This document shows, piece by piece, positions 2,171-13,766 of a stretch of 64,000 nt of DNA (positions within the stretch are counted from its first letter, which is position 1; each line of letters opens with the position of its first letter). Source of the stretch: Hydrogenophaga sp. PBL-H3 (GTDB lineage: Bacteria > Pseudomonadota > Gammaproteobacteria > Burkholderiales > Burkholderiaceae_C); NCBI RefSeq assembly GCF_010104355.1, contig NZ_CP044972.1, forward strand, positions 2,852,001 through 2,916,000, written 5' to 3'. Below the pieces are notes generated by a model, which did no database searches, was not told the origin of the DNA, and saw nothing but the letters and a program-made list of their open reading frames with translations. Both the position numbers and the translations under genes were made by a program.

Positions 2171-3523
2171 TCAGGCCGCGAGCCGCGCGGCGGCCGCGTA
2201 GCGGCTCACCGGCCGCTCCAGCCCGAGGTTCTCGCGCAGCGTGCTGCCTTCGTAGGCGGTGCGGAACAGGCCGCGCTTCTGCAGCTCGGGCACCACCAGG
2301 TCCACGAACTCGTTGAGCGAGGCCGGCAGCACCGGCGGCATCACGTTGAAGCCGTCGGCCGCGCCGTTCTCGAACCACTCCTGCATCTGGTCGGCAATGG
2401 TCTGCGGTGTGCCGATCACCACCCAGTGGCCGCGCGCGCCGGCCAGGTATTCGTAGAGCTGGCGCACGGTGAACTGCTCGCGCCGCGCGAGTTCGATCAC
2501 CACGTGCGCGCGGCTGTTGATGCCCTTGGGCGGCTCCGGGTAGTGCGGTGGCGGTGCGTCCAGATTCCAGCGGCGCAGGTCCTCGCCGGGCCAGTACGGT
2601 GCGAGGGTGCTCAGGCCCACCGAGGGGTGGATCAGCGCCTGCAGCTCGGCCCACTTGGCCTGCGCCTCGGCTTCGGTGCGCCCGATCACCGGCGAGATGC
2701 CGGGCAGCACCAACAGCTGCTCGGGCCGCCGGCAGTGCTTCGCCATGCGGCCTTTCACGTCCTTGTAAAACGCCTGCGCCTCGGCCAGGCTGGTCCAGGC
2801 GGTGAAGATCGCTTCCGCCGTGGCCGCCGCGAGTTCCTTGCCGTCCTCGGACGACCCCGCCTGCACGATCACCGGGTGGCCCTGTGGCGAGCGCTCGATG
2901 TTCAGCGGCCCTTTCACCTTCAGGTGCTTGCCGATGTGGTTGAGCTCGTGCAGCTTCGCGGGGTCGAAGTACACGCCCGATGCGCGGTCGCGCACGAAGG
3001 CGTCGTCGTCGAAGCTGTCCCACAGGCCTTTGACCACGTCCACGAACTCGGTGGCCTTGGCGTAGCGCTCGCCGGGCGTGGGGTGCGCGTCCAGACCGAA
3101 GTTGCCATGCACGCTGTCGTTGCTGGTGGTCACCACGTTCCAGGCCGCGCGGCCCTTGCTGATGTGGTCGAGCGACGCGAATTTGCGCGCCAGCAGGTAG
3201 GGGTCTTCGTAGGTGGTGGACGCGGTGGCGACGAAGCCGATGTGTTTCGTCACCGCCGCGAGCGCGGCCCACAACGTGACCGGCTCGAAGTGCGAGATGC
3301 GTCCCTGGCGGCTGAAGGACTCGTCGTCGCCCGTGCCCCAGATGCCGGGGCTGTCGGCCACGAACACCTGGTCAAACAGGCCGCGCTCGGCGGTCTGCGC
3401 GACCTCGATGTAGTGGTCGATGTTGGTGCCCGAGTCGATCTGCGAACCGGGATGGCGCCAGGCGGCGATGTGGTGGCCCGTGGCCATGATGAAGGCGCCC
3501 AGGCGCAGTTGTCTGTTGCTCAT
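2171..3523 (-). CDS. LLM-class flavin-dependent monooxygenase (NtaA/SnaA/DszA type)
   Basis: This 450-aa protein is a bacterial luciferase-like oxidoreductase. The start RQLRLGAFIMATGHHIAAW, the VFVADSPG strand and the DHISKGRAAWNVVTTSN flavin-binding region match the NtaA/SnaA/DszA branch, which uses FMNH2 from a separate reductase to oxidise sulfonates, sulfones, aminopolycarboxylates and similar compounds. The ATG at 3523 is chosen because a GGAG-like site precedes it and the family N-terminus begins there; codons further upstream do not resemble the family. It is convergent with the MauG-like gene (4 bp between stops) and divergent from the sulfur operon at 3883. That context suggests an organosulfur substrate, but this is inference. 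Confidence 0.85.
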   Translation of the reverse strand: MSNRQLRLGAFIMATGHHIAAWRHPGSQIDSGTNIDHYIEVAQTAERGLFDQVFVADSPGIWGTGDDESFSRQGRISHFEPVTLWAALAAVTKHIGFVATASTTYEDPYLLARKFASLDHISKGRAAWNVVTTSNDSVHGNFGLDAHPTPGERYAKATEFVDVVKGLWDSFDDDAFVRDRASGVYFDPAKLHELNHIGKHLKVKGPLNIERSPQGHPVIVQAGSSEDGKELAAATAEAIFTAWTSLAEAQAFYKDVKGRMAKHCRRPEQLLVLPGISPVIGRTEAEAQAKWAELQALIHPSVGLSTLAPYWPGEDLRRWNLDAPPPHYPEPPKGINSRAHVVIELARREQFTVRQLYEYLAGARGHWVVIGTPQTIADQMQEWFENGAADGFNVMPPVLPASLNEFVDLVVPELQKRGLFRTAYEGSTLRENLGLERPVSRYAAAARLAA

Positions 3524-3675
3524 TGGAGGTTGCTCCCTGTGGATCGAGCCCGCCAATCTAGGCCCGGACTCCTCCGCGCGGAACGAAACAAACCGCATAT
3601 CCATAGCCGTTCTGCTTCGTTGTGGACCCGGTCCCGCCTGCCTAGCATCGGTGCACCGGTTCTGAAAAGTCTGGT

Positions 3676-3746
3676 CCGGCCGATGCGGAGATGAGAGAAC
3701 CCTGGTTGTCTCCTGGGGGGAGGATTGCATCGGCCGGCTTTTTTTT
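3676..3746 (+). terminator. Long hairpin with U-tract in the leader of the encapsulin operon
   Basis: Arms CCGGCCGATGC (3676-3686) and GCATCGGCCGG (3727-3737) are perfectly complementary over 11 bp and are followed by C and eight T (3739-3746). The 40-nt loop has its own small pairing (GGAGA with TCTCC). This is an intrinsic terminator on the + strand, but it sits about 137 bp before the rhodanese start and after no + strand gene. It therefore either ends a short leader or small RNA, or acts as an attenuator. Apart from this and the A-rich site after it, the 359-bp gap 3524-3882 shows nothing else I can name. Confidence 0.65.
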
Positions 3747-3778
3747 GAGCGCGATCCGGCTCAGATGTTTGGGCAATG

Positions 3779-3882: not shown

Positions 3883-4350
3883 ATGACCGTTGCCTCCGAA
3901 TCTCCCACCTTGCGCGACGCCCTGGAAGCCGCCGAGCAGGCCGCCCGATCCGCGGGCCTGCCCTATGCGGGCGGCGTCTCGCCCGGGCTCGCCTGGTCGC
4001 TGTTTTCCACGGGCCAGGCCATCCTGGTGGACGTGCGCAGCGCCGAAGAGCGCAAGTTTGTCGGCCAGGTGCCCGAGAGCGTTCATGTGCCCTGGGCCAC
4101 CGGCACCAACCTCACGCGCAACCCGCGTTTCGTGCGCGAACTCGAAGCCAAAACCGGCAAGGACGCGCGCATCCTGCTGCTGTGCCGCAGCGGCAAGCGC
4201 TCGGCACTGGCGGCCGAGGCAGCGGCCCAAGCCGGCTTCACCCAGGTGTTCAACGTGCTCGAAGGTTTCGAGGGCGAGATCGACGCCAACCAACACCGCG
4301 GTGGCCAGGACGGCTGGCGCTTCCAGGGGCTGCCGTGGGTTCAAGACTGA
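3883..4350 (+). CDS. Rhodanese-domain sulfurtransferase of the encapsulin operon
   Basis: This 155-aa single rhodanese domain has the active-site loop LLLCRSGKRS; Cys101 would carry the persulfide. Other rhodanese hallmarks are ILVDVRSAEE near residues 46-56 and the C-terminal WRFQGLPW segment. Rhodaneses move sulfane sulfur between thiol donors and acceptors. The ATG at 3883 is used because it follows a plausible purine-rich site and skips an unrelated leader. Its stop TGA overlaps the ATG of the serine acetyltransferase gene by one base, so the genes are co-translated. Rhodanese genes are regular neighbours of family 2A encapsulins, which supports a role in delivering or removing sulfur at the compartment. 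Confidence 0.88.
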   Translation: MTVASESPTLRDALEAAEQAARSAGLPYAGGVSPGLAWSLFSTGQAILVDVRSAEERKFVGQVPESVHVPWATGTNLTRNPRFVRELEAKTGKDARILLLCRSGKRSALAAEAAAQAGFTQVFNVLEGFEGEIDANQHRGGQDGWRFQGLPWVQD

Positions 4351-5291
4351 TGGACGACGCACTCACCCCCGAGGTGCGCACGCACCTGTTTGACCTGCAG
4401 CAGGTCGTGCGCGATCTGGCCGATGTACGCCAGCGCTGGCGCACAGCGCAGAAGCGCTCGCGCGAACCCGGCGGTCGAGAGCTGCCCTCGCGCGACGCGC
4501 TCACCGACATCCTAGACGGGCTGCGCGGCGCGTTGTTTCCGATGCGCCTGGGCCCACCCGACCTGCGCCAGGAGAGCGAGGACTTCTACATCGGCCACAC
4601 GCTGGACACGTCGTTGCAAGCCCTGCTGGGCCAGGTGCGGCTGGAGCTGCGCCACCAGCACCGCCACGAGGGCGGCGGCCATGAGGCGGCGACCGAACAG
4701 CAGGCGCGCGACCTCGTGCGCGATTTCGCGCACTCGCTGCCCGCCATCCGCGAGCTGCTCGACAGCGACGTGGTGGCGGCCTTCGAGGGCGACCCCGCCG
4801 CGCGCAGCGTGGACGAGGTGCTGCTGTGCTACCCCGGCATCCAGGCCATGATCCACCACCGCGTGGCGCACCGCTTCTACCAGCTGGGGGTGCCGCTGCT
4901 GGCGCGCATCGTGGCCGAGCTCGCGCACAGCGCGACCGGCATCGACATCCACCCGGGTGCCTCCATCGGCGCGGGCTTCTTCATCGACCACGGCACGGGC
5001 GTGGTGATCGGCGAGACCGCCGTGATCGGTCAGCGCGTGCGCGTGTACCAGGCGGTCACGCTGGGCGCCAAGCGCTTCCCCACCGACGACAACGGCCACC
5101 TGAGCAAAGGCCTGGCGCGCCACCCCGTGGTGGAGGACGACGTGGTGATCTACGCCGGCGCCACCGTGCTCGGGCGCGTGACCATCGGCCGCGGCGCCAC
5201 CATCGGCGGCAACCTCTGGGTCACGCACGACGTGGCCGCAGGCGCCAACCTGAGCCAGGCGCGATCACGGGAGGTCACCACCAGCCCCTGA
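4350..5291 (+). CDS. Serine O-acetyltransferase (CysE/EpsC-like)
   Basis: This 313-aa enzyme would make O-acetylserine from serine and acetyl-CoA, the first step of cysteine synthesis. The C-terminal third is a left-handed beta-helix of hexapeptide repeats (IDIHPGASIGAG, FFIDHGTGVVIGETAVIG, ATVLGRVTIGRGATIGGN), with the HPG and DHGTG histidines expected for the active site. The helical N-terminal domain (residues 1 to about 150) is longer than in E. coli CysE, as in EpsC-like forms. It starts at ATG 4350 inside the rhodanese stop codon. Serine acetyltransferases of this sort accompany the family 2A shell/cysteine desulfurase pair, which ties cysteine supply to the compartment. A 114-bp gap without features follows. 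Confidence 0.88.
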   Translation: MDDALTPEVRTHLFDLQQVVRDLADVRQRWRTAQKRSREPGGRELPSRDALTDILDGLRGALFPMRLGPPDLRQESEDFYIGHTLDTSLQALLGQVRLELRHQHRHEGGGHEAATEQQARDLVRDFAHSLPAIRELLDSDVVAAFEGDPAARSVDEVLLCYPGIQAMIHHRVAHRFYQLGVPLLARIVAELAHSATGIDIHPGASIGAGFFIDHGTGVVIGETAVIGQRVRVYQAVTLGAKRFPTDDNGHLSKGLARHPVVEDDVVIYAGATVLGRVTIGRGATIGGNLWVTHDVAAGANLSQARSREVTTSP

Positions 5292-5405
5292 TCGACCGCC
5301 GCCACCCAGCCCCTTCACCCGCCCCCCTCGCCGCGTCGCTCAAGCCGCACGCACAGGGTTTCCTGTTGCCTTTTTCTTTTCAACCATCGATGCCACGGAG
5401 CCTTC

Positions 5406-6335
5406 ATGTCTGACCACACCCCTTCCCAGCTGGCGCTGAGCGACAACGCCGCTCGCCAACTGGCCAACGCCACCAAGACCGCACCGGTCCTGTCCACCAT
5501 CAGCCCGCGCTGGCTCACGCACCTGCTGCAGTGGCAGCCGGTGGAGGCCGGCATCTACCGCCTCAACAAGGTGAAGAACCCGCAGGACGTGGAGGTGCTG
5601 TGCGCGCAGCGCGACGAGAGCGAACTGCCCTCGACCTTCGTGGACTACGAAGACCAGCCGCGCGAGTATTTCCTGAACGCCGTGTCCACCGTGCTCGACG
5701 TGCACACCCGCGTGTCCGACCTCTACAGCAGCCCGCACGACCAGATCAAGGAACAGCTGCGCCTGACCATCGAGACCATCAAGGAAAAGCAGGAAAGCGA
5801 GCTGATCAACAACGCCGACTACGGCCTGCTGGCCAGCGTGCACCCCAACCAGATCGTCTACCCCCTCACCGGCGCGCCCACGCCCGATGATCTGGACGAA
5901 CTGCTGACCAAGGTGTGGAAGGAGCCCGCCTTCTTCCTCACGCACCCGCTGGCCATCGCTGCCTTCGGCCGCGAATGCACACGCCGTGGCGTGCCACCGC
6001 CCACGGTGAGTCTGTTCGGCTCGCAGTTCCTCACCTGGCGCGGCATCCCGCTGATTCCCAGCGACAAGGTGCCCGTGGCCGATGGCAAGACCAAGATCCT
6101 GCTGCTGCGCGTGGGCGACAAGCGCCAGGGCGTGGTGGGCCTCTACCAGCCGGGCCTGGCGGGTGAGCAGAGTCCGGGCCTGTCGGTGCGCTTCATGGGC
6201 ATCAACCGCAGTGCCATCGCCTCGTACCTGATCTCGCTGTACTGCTCGCTCGCGGTGCAGACCGAGGACGCACTGGCCGTGCTGGAAGACGTTGAAGTGG
6301 GCAAGTTCCATGACTATCCAGACACCTACAAGTGA
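5406..6335 (+). CDS. Family 2A encapsulin shell protein (SrpI-like)
   Basis: This 309-aa protein has the HK97-type major-capsid-like fold expected of family 2A encapsulins, once annotated as SrpI or 'family 2 encapsulin'. Recognition rests on the overall sequence (early LSTISPRWLTHLLQWQ, the DYEDQPREYFLNAVST stretch, a central INNADYGLLASVHPNQ, the FLTHPLAIAAFGREC helix and the C-terminal ISLYCSLAVQTEDALAVLE), on the length, and on the operon. Shell copies self-assemble into a cytoplasmic compartment that encloses a cysteine desulfurase. The desulfurase gene starts inside the last 26 bp of this gene, and rhodanese and serine acetyltransferase precede it. In studied relatives the compartment stores elemental sulfur; I infer the same here. 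The CDS has no signal peptide. Confidence 0.88.
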   Translation: MSDHTPSQLALSDNAARQLANATKTAPVLSTISPRWLTHLLQWQPVEAGIYRLNKVKNPQDVEVLCAQRDESELPSTFVDYEDQPREYFLNAVSTVLDVHTRVSDLYSSPHDQIKEQLRLTIETIKEKQESELINNADYGLLASVHPNQIVYPLTGAPTPDDLDELLTKVWKEPAFFLTHPLAIAAFGRECTRRGVPPPTVSLFGSQFLTWRGIPLIPSDKVPVADGKTKILLLRVGDKRQGVVGLYQPGLAGEQSPGLSVRFMGINRSAIASYLISLYCSLAVQTEDALAVLEDVEVGKFHDYPDTYK

Positions 6336-7936
6336 GCTGCCGGGCGCCACGCCGCCCGCCGGACTTCCCGACCTCGCCGCGCTGAACCAGCTGGCTGGCG
6401 CGTTCTTCGCTGCCCTGCCCGGCGCGCTGGCACCCGGTGCGAACCTGGCGCCCGCCCCACCTCAGAGCCTGCTCGCGCTGGCCGTACCCACCGCGACCGG
6501 CGCCACCGCACCCGACCCGGCGGCCTCGTTCGGCTTTCCCACGGGCGAGGCCTTGCGCGCGTTGCTCGCCGAGCCGCCGCGCCACGCCGGCACGCCCGGT
6601 GCGGCTGCGCCGACCAGCCCGACCGACACGGCCGGCGCGTTCTACCTCACGGAGGTGCTGCAGACGCCCCAAGGCTTCGCCACCACCGCGCCGCAATCCG
6701 ACACCACGCGCCACCCGCCGTTCGACGTCAACGCCATCCGGCGCGACTTCCCCATCCTGCAGGAGCGCGTGAACGGCCGGCAGCTGGTGTGGTTGGACAA
6801 CGCCGCCACCACGCAGAAGCCGCAGTCGGTGATCGACCGCATCGCGTATTTCTACGAGCACGAGAACTCCAACATCCACCGCGCGGCGCACGCACTGGCC
6901 GCGCGCGCGACCGACGCCTACGAGGGCGCGCGCGAGAAAGTGCGCGCCTTCCTCGGCGCATCCTCGGTGGACGAGATCGTCTTCGTGCGCGGTGCCACCG
7001 AGGCCATCAACCTCGTGGCCAAGACCTGGGGCGCGAAGCACGTGGGCGCGGGCGACGAGATCATCGTCTCGCACCTGGAGCACCACGCCAACATCGTGCC
7101 CTGGCAGCAGCTCGCAGCCGACAAGGGTGCGGTGATCCGGGTGATCCCGGTGGACGACACCGGCCAGGTGCGGCTCGACGAGTTCCAGAAGCTGCTCAAC
7201 GCCCGCACGAAGATCGTGGCCGTCACGCAGGTGTCGAACGCACTGGGTACGGTGGTGCCGGTGAAAGAGATCGTGGAACTGGCGCACCGCGCTGGCGCGA
7301 AGGCGCTGGTGGATGGCGCGCAATCGGTGAGCCACCTGCGCGTGAACGTGCAGGCGATCGACGCCGACTTCTTCGTGTTCTCGGGCCACAAGATCTTCGG
7401 CCCCACCGGCATCGGTGTGGTCTACGGCAAGCGCGCTGCTCGACGACATGCCGCCCTGGCAGGGTGGCGGCAACATGATCGCCGACGTGAGCTTCGAGCG
7501 CACGGTGTTCCAGCCGCCGCCCAACAAGTTCGAGGCCGGCACCGGCAACATCGCCGACGCGGTGGGCCTGGGCGCGGCGATCGACTACGTGCAGCGCATC
7601 GGGCTGGAGAACATCGCGCGCTACGAGCATGACCTGCTGGCCTACGCCACACACCACCTGCAACCGATTCCCGGCGTGCGCCTGATCGGCACCGCGCACG
7701 AGAAGGCCAGCGTGCTGTCTTTCGTGTTGCAGGGCTACACCACCGAAGAGGTGGGCAAGGCGCTCAACGAGGAAGGCATTGCGGTGCGCTCGGGCCACCA
7801 CTGCGCACAGCCCATCCTGCGGCGCTTCGGCGTCGAGACCACGGTGCGGCCGTCGCTGGCCTTCTACAACACCTGCGAGGAGGTGGACCGCTTCATCGCG
7901 GTGGTGCGCCGCCTGAGTTCGGCGCGGCGGCGCTGA
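6310..7936 (+). pseudogene. SufS-type cysteine desulfurase, encapsulin cargo, frameshifted
   Basis: This is a PLP-dependent cysteine desulfurase that would release sulfur from cysteine inside the encapsulin. Residues 1 to about 137 are a Pro/Ala/Gly-rich, probably disordered extension with short hydrophobic motifs (LNQLAGAFFAALPG, GFPTGEALRALLAEPP, GAFYLTEVL), as in family 2A cargo-loading domains. The SufS domain begins at FDVNAIRRDFP. The PLP lysine is in FVFSGHK (about residue 361). At 7432-7436 the frame breaks: after GVVYGKR the sequence continues one frame over as LLDDMPPWQGGG, as if two bases were lost from a GC run. The catalytic cysteine (RSGHHCAQP, codon 7802-7804) lies in the second frame. 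The gene is either broken or affected by a sequencing error. Confidence 0.88.
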
Positions 7937-8297: not shown

Positions 8298-8864
8298 TCA
8301 GGCCTCGCTGTCTTCAATGTCCTCGCCCAGCGCGTGCAGCAGTTGCTCGACAAACGTGTCCATGACCGGCAGCGCGCACGGCAGGGCCATGCCCGTGTTC
8401 TCCGGAAACCAGCCACGTCCACCCGCGCTCAGGCGCAGGAAGCTTGCATCGGGCGCTTCACCCGCGTCGAACACATGGGGCACACCGGCTGGCAGCAGCA
8501 CCCAGTCGCCGGCTTCACAGAGCAGGCTGGTGAAACCCTCGCGCGTTCGAACGCTCAACAGCGCCGTGCCCTGCAGGAAGACGCAGGCCAAGGCGGCTGT
8601 GCTGGCGAGTTCCTGGGGTCTCGGTCGTGCAGCGCCATAGCCCGCGCCGGCCAGGCACACCCGCTCCGTCACATGCGGGCCCAGCTGGCGCCGCAGATCG
8701 ACCAAGGCTGCCGCATGGCCCGCCTGGGCCTCGGCCGGCTCGGCGCCATCCGCCCAGCGTCCCCAGCGCACGCCCACCGACGTGGCGAGCGGGCACGTGG
8801 CCCCTTCGCACACGGAAGTGGACAACCAGAGACCGTCGGGGGAGAACGTTGCAACAGCAGCCAT
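8298..8864 (-). CDS. Cupin protein, acireductone dioxygenase-like, metal ligands altered
   Basis: This 188-aa protein has a C-terminal cupin barrel. The run LLCEAGDWVLLPAGVPHVFD followed by GWFPENTG resembles acireductone dioxygenase, the Fe/Ni enzyme of methionine salvage. The first metal motif of true acireductone dioxygenases (HxHxxxE) is not present; the matching stretch reads STAALACVFLQG. Only the later histidine (VPHVFD) is visible. It is therefore probably a divergent or catalytically changed homolog and not a standard MtnD. I use the ATG at 8864; a longer start upstream is possible. Its position among sulfur genes would fit sulfur salvage, but no other methionine-salvage gene is in the window. 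Confidence 0.55.
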   Translation of the reverse strand: MAAVATFSPDGLWLSTSVCEGATCPLATSVGVRWGRWADGAEPAEAQAGHAAALVDLRRQLGPHVTERVCLAGAGYGAARPRPQELASTAALACVFLQGTALLSVRTREGFTSLLCEAGDWVLLPAGVPHVFDAGEAPDASFLRLSAGGRGWFPENTGMALPCALPVMDTFVEQLLHALGEDIEDSEA

Positions 8865-8956
8865 GCACGGCAGTGTCCGCGCGGTTGGCCACAAACCCAA
8901 CGAAGCATTCGGACTTTGCTCATGCGCCCAGCGTCTATGCCATATGCCGCATGCCC

Positions 8957-8988: not shown

Positions 8989-9090
8989 CTGCGTGTGCTC
9001 CAGAAAATGCAGTTTTGCAATGGGGGAGAAAACAAGCATGAGCACACCACAACCCGGCGATGCCACGCCGGCCAGGCATTGAGTCCCGGC

Positions 9091-9651
9091 ATGGCATTTC
9101 CTACCGTCATCGTCATGCCTGGCTGGCGCAATTCCGGCCCCGGCCACTGGCAGAGCCTGTGGTCCGACATCCTGCCCTCGGTGCTTCGCGTGGAGCAGGA
9201 CGACTGGGTCGCGCCCGTGCGCACGGCCTGGGTGGCCCGCCTGAGCGAAACCATCGAGCGGGCGCCCGGCCCCGTGGTGGTGGTGGCGCACAGCCTGGGC
9301 TGCATCACCACCACGCACCTGCCGGCCTCCATCGCCCAGCGCATCCAGGGTGCGCTGCTGGTGGCGCCGGCCGATCCCGAGCGCCGCGGCGTGCTGGCCG
9401 ATTTCGCGCCCGTGCCCTACCAGCGCCTGCCCTACCGCAGCATCCTCGTGGCCAGCAGCAACGACCCGTACTGTCCGGTGCGAACGGCCGGCGCGTATGC
9501 GCGCGCCTGGGGCAGCGAGTTCGTGCGGCTCAACGACGCCGGCCACATCAATGTGGACTCGGGTCACGGCCCCTGGCCGCTGGGCCTGGCGCTGCTGCAG
9601 TCGCTCGGGGCCGATGTGCCGGCCGCCACCCGCGCGGTGGAGCCCGCCTGA
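9091..9651 (+). CDS. Alpha/beta hydrolase, RBBP9/YdeN family
   Basis: This 186-aa serine hydrolase begins with the family signature VIVMPGWRNSGPGHWQ. The nucleophile elbow is VVVAHSLGC; an acidic residue in ASSNDPYC and the histidine in NDAGHINVDSGHG complete the triad. RBBP9/YdeN proteins are small cytoplasmic hydrolases whose substrates are mostly unknown. I choose ATG 9091 because the family starts there. A short, well-placed ATG at 9039 lies in another frame and ends at 9083. The gene precedes the sulfate transporter operon by 107 bp. Homologs beside sulfate or sulfonate uptake genes are common in this group, but the function is open. Confidence 0.8.
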   Translation: MAFPTVIVMPGWRNSGPGHWQSLWSDILPSVLRVEQDDWVAPVRTAWVARLSETIERAPGPVVVVAHSLGCITTTHLPASIAQRIQGALLVAPADPERRGVLADFAPVPYQRLPYRSILVASSNDPYCPVRTAGAYARAWGSEFVRLNDAGHINVDSGHGPWPLGLALLQSLGADVPAATRAVEPA

Positions 9652-9758: not shown

Positions 9759-10760
9759 ATGAAAAACACCTTGCGTGTGGCCCTGGCCGCCGTTGCCCTC
9801 TCCACCTCCGCGCTGGCATCCGCCCAGACCAGCACGCTGCTCAATGTCTCCTACGACGTGGCGCGCGAGTTCTACAAAGACATCAACGTGGCCTTTGCCG
9901 CCAGCTACAAGAAGAGCACGGGCAAGGACATCAAGGTCGACCAGTCGCACGCCGGCTCCAGCGCACAGGCGCGCGCCGTGGCCGATGGCCTGGAGGCCGA
10001 CGTGGTGACCTTCAACACCACCACCGACGTGGACTTCCTGGCCGAGAAGGGTGTGGTCGCCAAGGACTGGCGCCAGAAGTTCGCCAACGGCGCGGCACCC
10101 ACCACCTCGACCATGCTGTTCCTGGTGCGCAACGGCAACCCCAAGGGCATCAAGGACTGGGACGACCTGATCAAGCCTGGCGTGCAGGTGGTGGTGGTCA
10201 ACCCCAAGACCGGCGGCAACGGCCGCATGGCCTACCTGGCCGCCTGGGGCTATGTGCGCAGCAAGGGCGGCAGCGACGCTGAAGCCGCCGAGTTCGTGGG
10301 CAAGCTCTACAAGAACGTGCCGGTGCTGGCGCGCGGCGGCCGTGACGCCACCGGCGTCTTCCTGCAACGCAACATCGGCGACGTGCTCGTGACCTTCGAG
10401 TCCGAGGTGGTCTCGGTGGACACCGAGTTCGGCGCCGGCAAGGTCGATGCCATCCACCCCAGCGCCTCCATCGTGGCGGAAAACCCGGTCGCCATCGTCG
10501 AACGCACGGTGAACAAGAAGGGTTCGGCCGCTGAAGCCAAGGCCTACCTCGATTTCCTCTACAGCGCCGAAGGCCAGGAGATCGCGGCCAAACACAACAT
10601 CCGCCCGCGCAACGAAGCGGTGCTGAAGAAATACGCCAGTGCCTTCAAACCGATCAAGCTGTTCACCGTCGAGCAGTATTTCGGCTCGCTGGGCGAAGCG
10701 CAGAAAGTGCACTTCAACGACGGCGGTCAGTTCGACAAGCTCTACACCGTCGGAAAGTAA
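9759..10760 (+). CDS. sbp: Sulfate-binding periplasmic protein
   Basis: This 333-aa binding protein of the sulfate/thiosulfate ABC importer starts [22 protein letters not shown], a Sec signal peptide. The mature protein opens with [17 protein letters not shown], the hallmark of the Sbp/CysP family, and contains [20 protein letters not shown] and [18 protein letters not shown], which line the sulfate site. The length matches Sbp. It heads the order sbp-cysT-cysW-cysA, so it delivers sulfate to that permease. Whether it prefers sulfate or thiosulfate cannot be settled by eye. Confidence 0.93.
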
Positions 10761-10769
10761 GGAAACACC

Positions 10770-10855
10770 CCCGCCGCGCTTCGCGCGACCCCCTCAAGGA
10801 GGCGGTGCCTGCGGCCCGGCAAAGCCGGTTCCGCGGCACCTCTTGGTTGAGCCCC
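10770..10855. repeat. GC-rich palindromic intergenic element between sbp and cysT
   Basis: The 125-bp gap holds stacked palindromes: CGCGCTTCGCGCG, CCCCTCAAGGAGGC and GCCCGGCAAAGCCGG, ending GCGGCACCTCTTGG. Very similar GC-rich blocks recur at about 36395, 41798, 50240 and 56290. Such elements are frequent in Comamonadaceae intergenic DNA. Here it may form mRNA secondary structure that lowers cysTWA expression relative to sbp. Confidence 0.5.
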
Positions 10856-10885
10856 CCATTCCTCGCAGCGCCCTGGAAATACAAC

Positions 10886-11767
10886 ATGACAACCGCCACG
10901 CTGCCCTCTGCGGCAGCTTCCCCGCCGGGCGCGCGCCGCGCCACGCGCCGCGTGCTGCCGGGCTTCAACATCACGCTGGGCTTCACGGTCTTCTACCTGA
11001 GCCTGATCGTGCTGATCCCGCTTTCGGCGCTGATCTTCAAGACCTTCACCCTCACCTGGCCGCAGTTCTGGGAAGCCGTCACCGCGCCGCGCGTGCTGGC
11101 CTCTTACAAGCTCACCTTCGGCGCCTCGTTCATCGCAGCCTGCGTCAACGCGGTCTTTGGCCTGCTGGTGGCCTGGGTGCTGGTGCGCTACAGCTTCCCC
11201 GGCAAGAAGATCATCGACGCGCTGGTGGACCTGCCCTTTGCGCTGCCCACCGCCGTGGCCGGCATCTCGCTCACCGCGCTGCTGGCGGGCAACGGCTGGA
11301 TCGGTCAGTACACCGAGCCGCTGGGCCTGCAGCTGGCCTTCAACCCCAACGGTGTGGTGATTGCGCTCATCTTCATCGGCCTGCCGTTTGTGGTGCGCAC
11401 GGTGCAGCCGGTGCTCGAAGACACCGAGAAGGAGCTGGAGGAAGCCGCCACCTGCCTGGGTGCCACCCGCTGGCAGACCTTCAGCCGCGTGATCTTCCCC
11501 AGCATCGCGCCCGCCCTGCTCACCGGTTTTGCCATGGCCTTTGCCCGCGCGGTGGGTGAATACGGCTCGGTCATCTTCATCGCCGGCAACATGCCCATGG
11601 TCTCCGAAATCACGCCGCTGATCATCATCAGCAAGCTGGAGCAGTACGACTACGCGGGCGCCACCGCCGTGGCCACCGTGATGCTCGCCATCTCCTTCGT
11701 GCTGCTGCTGCTCATCAACGCCTTGCAGACCTGGCAGCGCAAGCGTTCCGGAGGCAACCTGCAATGA
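10886..11767 (+). CDS. cysT: Sulfate ABC transporter permease CysT (CysU)
   Basis: This 293-aa inner-membrane permease has about six hydrophobic helices, beginning with [20 protein letters not shown]. The cytoplasmic EAA loop, which contacts the ATPase, reads [21 protein letters not shown]. With CysW it forms the channel of the sulfate/thiosulfate importer. ATG 10886 is chosen because the preceding bases belong to the palindromic element. The final ATGA overlaps the cysW start. The N-terminal 25 residues are an Ala/Arg/Pro-rich cytoplasmic tail. Confidence 0.92.
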
Positions 11768-12681
11768 GCACCGTCAACTCCCCGCGCACCACACGCAAGG
11801 GCACCACCGAAACCGCATGGGTGCGCACCACGTTGATCGCCATTGCGCTGGTCTTCATGTTCCTGTTCCTCGTGCTGCCGCTGGCCGCCGTGTTCACCGA
11901 GGCCCTGCGCAAGGGCTGGGACGCCTACTGGGAAGCGCTGAAGGACCCCGATGCCTGGTCGGCCATCCGCCTGACCTTCCTCACCGCGCTGGTCGCCGTG
12001 CCGCTGAACCTGGTGTTCGGTGTGGCAGCGGCCTGGGCCGTGGCCAAGTACGAGTTCCGTGGCAAGTCCTTCCTCACCACGCTGATCGACCTGCCGTTCT
12101 CGGTGTCGCCGGTGGTCGCAGGCCTGATCTATGTGCTGGTGTTCGGCACGCAGGGCTGGTTCGGCCCGTGGCTGGCCGAGCACGACATCAAGATCATCTT
12201 TGCGGTGCCCGGCATCATCCTGGCCACCATCTTCGTCACCTTCCCCTTCATCGCGCGCGAACTCATTCCGCTGATGCAGGCGCAGGGCAACGACGAGGAA
12301 CAGGCCGCGCAAGTGCTGGGTGCCAGCGGCTGGCAGACCTTCTGGTACGTGACACTGCCCAACATCAAGTGGGGCCTGATCTACGGCGTGATCCTCTGCA
12401 ATGCACGCGCCATGGGCGAGTTCGGCGCGGTCTCGGTGGTCTCGGGTCACATCCGCGGCCAGACCAACACCATGCCGCTGCACGTGGAGATCCTCTACAA
12501 CGAGTACCAGTCGGTCGCCGCGTTTGCCGTGGCCTCGCTGCTGGCGCTGCTGGCCCTGGTCACGCTGGTGATCAAGTCGGTCGCCGAGTGGCGCATGGAG
12601 AGCGAGATGAAGGCCCTGGCCGAGTTGCCACCCGAGCGGCCCACGTCGGTTGCCAATCCTTTGCTGGGACAAACATCATGA
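11764..12681 (+). CDS. cysW: Sulfate ABC transporter permease CysW
   Basis: This 305-aa permease is homologous to CysT. It has an N-terminal helix ([21 protein letters not shown]), the [21 protein letters not shown] segment typical of CysW and the EAA loop [19 protein letters not shown]. Together with CysT and CysA it imports sulfate or thiosulfate. Its start overlaps the cysT stop by 4 bp and its stop overlaps the cysA start by 4 bp, so the three genes form one translationally coupled block. Confidence 0.92.
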
Positions 12682-13766
12682 GCATCGAAATCCGCAACAT
12701 CAACAAGCACTTCGGCACCTTCCAGGCGCTGAACAATGTCAACCTCGACATCCACTCGGGTGAGCTGCTCGCGCTGCTGGGTCCCTCGGGCTGCGGCAAG
12801 ACCACGCTGCTGCGCATCATTGCCGGGCTGGAGACGCCGGACACCGGCAACATTTTCTTCAGCGGCGAGGACACCACCGACGTGCACGTGCGCGAGCGCA
12901 ACGTGGGTTTCGTGTTCCAGCACTACGCGCTGTTCCGCCACATGACCGTGCTGGAAAACGTGGCCTTCGGCCTGCGCGTCAAACCGCGCAGCGAGCGCCC
13001 AAGCGACGCGCAGATCAAGGCCAAGGTGCACGACCTGCTCAAGCTGGTGCAGCTCGACTGGCTGGCCGACCGCTACCCCTCGCAGCTCTCGGGCGGCCAG
13101 CGCCAGCGCATTGCCCTGGCCCGTGCACTCGCGGTCGAACCCAAGGTGCTGCTGCTCGACGAGCCCTTCGGTGCGCTCGACGCCAAAGTGCGCAAGGAAC
13201 TGCGCCGCTGGCTGCGCCGCCTGCACGACGAGCTGCACGTGACCAGCGTGTTCGTCACGCACGACCAGGAAGAAGCGCTCGAAGTGGCCGACCGCGTGGT
13301 GCTGATGAACCAGGGCCGTGTGGAACAGGTGGGTGCACCGCAAGACGTGTGGGACCACCCGGCCAGCCCCTTTGTGTACGGCTTCCTGGGCGACGTGAAC
13401 CTGTTTCACGGCCGCGCGCACGAAGGCCAGATGCACCTGGAAGGCGTGTCGATCGCATCGCCCGAACACGCCGGCGCCCAGGATGCCCAGGCCCTGGCCT
13501 ACGTGCGTCCGCACGAGCTCGACGTGCTGCCCTGGGCGCCTGGTCTCAGCGGCATGGTCGTCAGGCTGGACCGCGCCGTCGTGGTGGGGCCGATCGCCCG
13601 CCTCGAACTCGTGCCGCTGGCGTCACCAGCCAATGGCGACAGGCCCACGCTGATCGAAGCCCACCTGCCGGCCGACCGCTTCAAGGAACTCGGCATCAAG
13701 GAAGGCGACACCGTGGTGGTGGCACCGCGCAAGGCGCGCGTGTTCCTGCAGCCCCAGACGGTCTGA
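12678..13766 (+). CDS. cysA: Sulfate ABC transporter ATP-binding protein CysA
   Basis: This 362-aa ATPase energises sulfate/thiosulfate import. It has Walker [10 protein letters not shown] (near residue 35), the Q-loop FVFQHYALF, the signature [15 protein letters not shown], Walker [13 protein letters not shown] and the switch histidine in FVTHDQ. The C-terminal 120 residues form the regulatory TOBE-like domain of sulfate ATPases ([12 protein letters not shown]). ATG 12678 overlaps the cysW stop. It is the last gene of the operon; the next gene, a PRC-barrel protein, is convergent after 28 bp without a clear terminator. Confidence 0.93.

Follow-up and report, generated by a model that had tools for sequence, protein, structure and literature searches.

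A family 2A encapsulin operon with a cargo desulfurase gene split between two reading frames in Hydrogenophaga sp. PBL-H3

The window analysed here is a 64,000-nucleotide stretch of the Hydrogenophaga sp. PBL-H3 chromosome (contig NZ_CP044972.1, positions 2,852,001 to 2,916,000), and positions 3883 to 7936 of it hold a four-gene encapsulin operon on the + strand. The first gene (3883..4350) encodes a rhodanese-type sulfurtransferase of 155 amino acids (PF00581, 51.6 bits), which is 82-83% identical in two other Hydrogenophaga genomes, G012 and G043. The second gene (4350..5291) encodes a serine O-acetyltransferase of 313 amino acids. It passes the NCBIfam model of EpsC-type enzymes (NF041874, 164.4 bits, cut-off 150), and its score against TIGR01172 cysE (173.1 bits) is under the cut-off of 210.65. 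The third gene (5406..6335) encodes a family 2A encapsulin shell protein of 309 amino acids. The fourth gene starts with the ATG at 6310 and encodes the cargo cysteine desulfurase. The rhodanese and acetyltransferase genes overlap by 1 base (TGATG, 4348-4352), and the shell and desulfurase genes by 26 bases (6310-6335). The rhodanese, acetyltransferase and shell genes are full open reading frames with good family matches.

The four-gene set is an ordinary family 2A encapsulin operon with the usual gene order. An initial annotation, made from the sequence alone, had named the rhodanese, the serine O-acetyltransferase, a 309-residue shell and a family 2A layout, with overlaps between the first two and the last two genes; the profile matches and the overlaps of 1 and 26 bases agree with it. 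Both the rhodanese and the serine acetyltransferase lie within the operon, as expected for members of the family 2A cysteine-desulfurase system. The available part of Andreas and Giessen (2021, PMC8346489) reports 1281 family 2A cysteine-desulfurase operons, with acetyltransferases and rhodaneses as the most enriched accessories. Compared with that class as described there, the gene content here is the same, whereas the cargo lies in two frames. Across 83 encapsulin loci (80 named loci plus G012, G043 and a further congener, G003), the stretch held a rhodanese in 76, an acetyltransferase in 71 and a desulfurase in 76; many stretches cover less than 10 kb per side, so these counts are lower bounds. 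No promoter-like site came up in a promoter and terminator scan, which gave 3 terminator-like sites versus a mean of 2.5 in shuffles. As a system, the operon adds little, because its kind is common: among 299 genomes drawn evenly from the bacterial family, a shell match was found in 55, and it was above the family cut-off in 54. A literature search over titles and abstract openings found no publication on the present case.

The shell protein scored 535.5 bits against the NCBIfam model encap_f2a (NF041162, curated cut-off 380) and 342.1 bits against PF19307. This profile check of 5406-6335 passed the family 2A threshold, and the best matches were encapsulins. The family 2B model NF041163 was also matched (412.8 bits, cut-off 400). 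Family 2B encapsulins carry a cNMP-binding domain; in the Pfam scan at E 0.001, PF19307 was the sole match to the shell and no cNMP-binding domain was found, and the 2A model scores higher than the 2B model. Residues 6-309 align without gaps to the solved chain 8t6r_A (249/304 identical), which is named 'Major membrane protein I' in the PDB and is presumably of Acinetobacter origin, and no difference of kind was seen between the two shells. A sulfur-storage study of an Acinetobacter encapsulin has reportedly been published. Residues 1-304 align to 6x8m_A, and the comparison with the Synechococcus elongatus SrpI shell (6x8m/6x8t) covers 304 residues at 507.7 bits. From its homology to these solved shells, the protein is predicted to have the HK97 fold, and the consulted sections of Andreas and Giessen describe the family 2A shell 6X8T as an HK97-type protein (PMC8346489). 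A structure prediction from 29 close sequences was too low in confidence for use (mean predicted local distance difference test score 33, predicted template modelling score 0.21).

The cargo gene is not read in one frame. Its authentic first part (6310..7441, + strand) comprises a 137-residue loading extension and the part that binds pyridoxal phosphate (PLP), with the PLP-lysine codon at 7390. The second part (7442..7936, + strand) lies in another frame and carries the catalytic-cysteine loop, with the cysteine codon at 7802. The break lies at 7429..7442 (+ strand), where an alternating CG stretch has two bases fewer than in G012, and a codon-usage detector places it at 7436. Frame 6310-7632 matches positions 190-464 of the cargo model NF041166 with 554.5 bits, and frame 7415-7936 matches positions 462-623 with 345.8 bits; the cut-off of 800 bits is reached by neither piece. 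The first frame stays in register through a glycine-lysine-arginine stretch past the PLP lysine, and is followed by about 65 out-of-register residues up to the stop at 7632. The break therefore separates the codons at 7390 and 7802, whose lysine and cysteine we take to be active-site residues from the family motifs. The initial annotation had described a SufS-type desulfurase with an N-terminal extension; the identity and the extension stand, but the single gene does not, since two frames are present and both are under the cut-off. No second cargo gene was found in this genome with the cargo model. Its three other matches were IscS-like (405 amino acids), desulfurase-like and kynureninase-like, as named by eye.

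The desulfurase adjoins the shell with what appears from its sequence to be an N-terminal loading extension. The S. elongatus homologue forms shells about 25 nm across; a desulfurase is loaded into them through its disordered N-terminus, and the loading motifs are LARLANEFFS and AASPYYFLDG, according to the available portion of Nichols et al. (2021, PMC8049743). Both published motifs have counterparts here by eye, LNQLAGAFFA and the weaker AGAFYL. The extension has 137 residues here versus 225 in the S. elongatus CyD cargo, as given in the same portion (PMC8049743). In contrast to the CyD gene, the cargo frame here is broken, and the operon is chromosomal rather than plasmid-borne. Among the window sequence and four database proteins (P0006, P0009, P0010 and P0011), the linker of the extension shows in-frame losses of different stretches (alignment columns 39-150), and both ends of the extension are kept in all five. 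The short extension was considered as a sign of decay and dropped, because the intact P0006, P0009, P0010 and P0011 also have shortened linkers.

The split frame is confined to this genome among the relatives compared. In 82 shell loci (the 80 named loci plus G012 and G043), the desulfurase is in one frame in all 74 that hold the whole gene. A motif search showed 73 of these to be open, with both active-site motifs in frame, and the 74th (L043), which has a variant motif, was found open by eye; in the other 8 the gene extends past the end of the stretch. In the 55 shell-matching family genomes, the cargo is above the cut-off, in one frame and without stops in 53. The two exceptions are G150, where the gene is cut at a contig end, and the present genome, which alone is split. 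The database protein P0006 (557 amino acids) is an intact near-twin, in which 234 of 238 residues are identical before the break and 166 of 167 after it. Because this near-identical protein is intact, the break, if real, is recent.

Sequence quality was assessed with a frame-switch scan by codon usage and a comparison with the congeners. The scan covered 264 kb, namely the window and ten 20-kb stretches of the same chromosome. It yielded 73 junctions, and a nonsense tail of at least 20 codons was found in the desulfurase only (64 codons; the next were 15 and 14). When two-base losses were simulated, the detector found 40 of 60. For the congener comparison, 22,158 (G012) and 30,173 (G043) of the 54,338 coding bases in the window were aligned, and reading of the gap lists showed no comparable frame break in these bases. 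In this tally the cargo gene was split beforehand at the break and gene ends were trimmed by 45 bases, so that the break itself is uncounted. Several frame-breaking gaps, located close to or ahead of the probable real starts of the monooxygenase gene, cysT and two genes at about 56.2-57.5 kb, were discounted by eye. Over the 264 kb sampled, these two comparisons and the simulated control led us to reject poor sequence quality as a general cause.

Because no second frame switch of this kind was seen in 264 kb, we favour a recent real mutation over poor assembly. We consider it probable, at about 0.73, that this is a family 2A encapsulin operon whose cargo gene was recently broken by a two-base frame change. 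The analysis shows the gene identities, the broken frame, the intact relatives and the retained shell; we infer that the mutation is real, that it is recent and that desulfurase activity is lost.

The S. elongatus desulfurase takes sulfur from cysteine and works faster inside the shell than outside; the shell is induced under sulfate starvation, and knock-outs have no growth defect (PMC8049743, available portion). Andreas and Giessen suggest the rhodanese as sulfur acceptor (PMC8346489, sections consulted), and the acetyltransferase has been proposed in the literature as the cysteine supply. In the present strain the frames of the shell, rhodanese and acetyltransferase genes are intact, and the desulfurase would end about 65 residues past the break, without the catalytic cysteine. 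Shells would then be expected to be empty or to carry dead cargo, with no encapsulated desulfurase activity, and the IscS-type gene elsewhere in the genome would presumably meet the essential sulfur needs. The chain of uptake, cysteine synthesis, desulfuration and sulfur storage predicted earlier for this locus does not hold, because the desulfurase frame is broken and the chain is thereby interrupted in this genome. As a useful correction, this copy is no argument for a sulfur-storage chain in a phototroph.

The best-surviving alternative, though an unlikely one, is that an isolated error of sequencing or assembly produced the break and that the operon works as an ordinary family 2A system. 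It fits with a single dinucleotide change within a CG-rich stretch, with the intact near-twin P0006 and with post-break codons that are conserved as in the congeners. Codon changes unique to each branch were counted as synonymous/non-synonymous. Before the break they are 13/8 for this branch, 28/10 for G012 and 19/5 for G043; after the break they are 14/2, 23/3 and 10/2, respectively. Several points here weigh against the main reading. No clear relaxation of selection is seen in the desulfurase, and the share of non-synonymous changes is slightly raised before the break but not after it. This codon pattern fits a very recent loss and a sequencing error equally. A single isolated error is also possible, since roughly one in three such changes escapes the scan. 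On the other side, an error of this kind would stand alone: no other such break was found in 264 kb by a detector that recovers 40 of 60 losses, and none appeared by the gap lists in the window coding bases aligned to G012 and G043.

Two further readings accept the break and give the shell a lasting part. It is improbable, though worth stating, that this is a natural family 2A cargo-knockout strain, whose conserved shell would be retained together with a desulfurase stub that has lost catalysis but can still be loaded. Should this be true and the state be kept in the species, the shell (with the rhodanese and acetyltransferase) would have a role independent of the packaged desulfurase. Even more doubtful is that the truncated desulfurase, with its loading extension and PLP domain, is kept as a non-catalytic cargo, the shell being useful without desulfurase activity. 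The entire loading extension remains in frame, and in the shell gene the codon changes unique to this branch are 23 synonymous and 1 non-synonymous. However, a single genome shows this state, the change is too young for a kept function to be visible, and the conservation of the shell may predate the break. Least credible is a full enzyme made through programmed ribosomal or transcriptional frameshifting, which was rejected: purifying selection is apparent on both pieces, but no homopolymer run or slip site was recognised at the break by eye, the zero frame has a tail of 64 codons before its stop, and the single open frame in all 74 complete relatives, the two congeners included, leaves no need for it.

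The operon with its split cargo gene lies between a monooxygenase gene and a sulfate importer, which the initial annotation had placed in a sulfur-acquisition island; both are present above their cut-offs. The importer sbp-cysT-cysW-cysA (9759..13766, + strand) matches TIGR00971 (379.5 bits), TIGR02139 (426.6 bits), TIGR02140 (432.7 bits) and TIGR00968 (408 bits). The divergent monooxygenase (2171..3523, - strand, likely start 3523) is a flavin mononucleotide-dependent enzyme of the NtaA/DmoA family (TIGR03860, 589 bits, cut-off 279.7). An alpha/beta-hydrolase-like protein, named by eye, adjoins the importer (9060..9651, + strand), and it has no NCBIfam or Pfam match. A cupin gene (8298-8900, - strand) matches the acireductone-dioxygenase family weakly (PF03079, 32.7 bits, cut-off 27), which may link it to methionine salvage, and likewise stands between the desulfurase and the importer in G012 and G043.

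In 67 Hydrogenophaga genomes, 44 of which are at least 90% complete, shell matches were found in four: this genome, G012 and G043 (98-99% identical), and G003. In G012 and G043 the operon is intact and is flanked by the monooxygenase and sulfate importer that are found here. The hydrolase adjoins sbp in G012, and in G043 only an 86-base DNA match was found beside sbp; it was not found in the stretches of G048 and G003 that were read. G003 holds only a shell remnant (residues 118-309, 52% identity), and the rhodanese, acetyltransferase and desulfurase were not found in the 39.5 kb read. G025 and G036 lack the operon but keep the order monooxygenase, hydrolase, importer, and G044, G065, G018 and G053 carry the hydrolase next to the importer, also without the operon. 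Importer genes were found near the family 2A operon in 16 to 19 of the 83 loci, counted per importer gene and including three congeners; this count, too, is a lower bound. Because congeners carry the importer without the operon, the importer is the more widespread unit, and the operon an adjoining presence/absence block with at least one loss (G003). At one importer, the genus offers a natural series of an intact operon (G012, G043), a broken cargo (this genome), a shell remnant (G003) and no operon (G025, G036), a series that could help to find the value of the nanocompartment to these bacteria.

A photosynthesis cluster close by had also been noted, and it is present: acsF, puhA, bchL, bchH, bchG and bchP in the window score above their cut-offs. 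A phytoene-synthase-like gene reaches 383.1 bits, below its cut-off of 500. The reaction-centre genes (PF00124, G000:C1:2755009-2756684) are some 95 kb away, to the left of the window. Between cysA and the hopanoid gene hpnD stands the puh/bch part of the cluster (window 13766-40807). The same site has no puh/bch genes in G012, G043 and G044, and the reaction centre of G044 is on another contig. In G012 and G043, cysA and the hopanoid-type genes are only about 3 and 7 kb apart, nothing aligns to window 13.8-40.8 kb, and no reaction-centre match was found anywhere in either genome. Within the genus, the shell is matched in 4 of the 67 genomes and a reaction centre in 23, and this genome is the only one with both. 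Of the 299 family genomes, 55 match the shell and 48 have a reaction centre; both occur in 8, versus 8.8 expected (Fisher p = 0.84). A link between the shell and phototrophy was rejected on this co-occurrence at expectation, and we take the proximity of the shell gene to the photosynthesis genes to be coincidental. The setting, singled out earlier as what deserved attention, loses that interest: shell and reaction centre occur independently, and the importer neighbours recur.

A conserved hairpin lies at window 3668-3752 (+ strand), between the monooxygenase and the rhodanese. Its 11-bp stem (CCGGCCGATGC / GCATCGGCCGG) comes with a conserved loop, and the + strand carries a T8 run. Its identity is 91-96% in G012, G043 and G025 and 75% in G036, and the flanks diverge. 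One change in an arm in G036 still allows a G-U pair on the + strand. Of the 67 Hydrogenophaga genomes, 5 have a single match each, and the 299 family genomes gave this genome and five short partial matches only. No Rfam match was obtained for 3668-3752. Folding is within the usual range on the + strand (z -1.0, -1.4) and is unusual on the - strand (z -3.1). The hairpin belongs to the site and not to the operon, because it stands beside the monooxygenase without the operon in G025 and G036.

Broken members of the family 2A system occur elsewhere too. In G079, a single-contig family genome, the shell match is in two overlapping pieces (G079:C1:1338662-1339545) and the cargo is above the cut-off; in G115 (contig C64), one TAG lies inside the shell match. 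A cargo-type desulfurase above the cut-off, with an open frame of 1201 amino acids and no shell match, was found at G227:C1:3267101-3268822. SufS-type sequences with internal stops, all below the cut-off, were found at G223:C110:37705-38439, G287:C2:64718-66046 and G356:C1:1843924-1845255.

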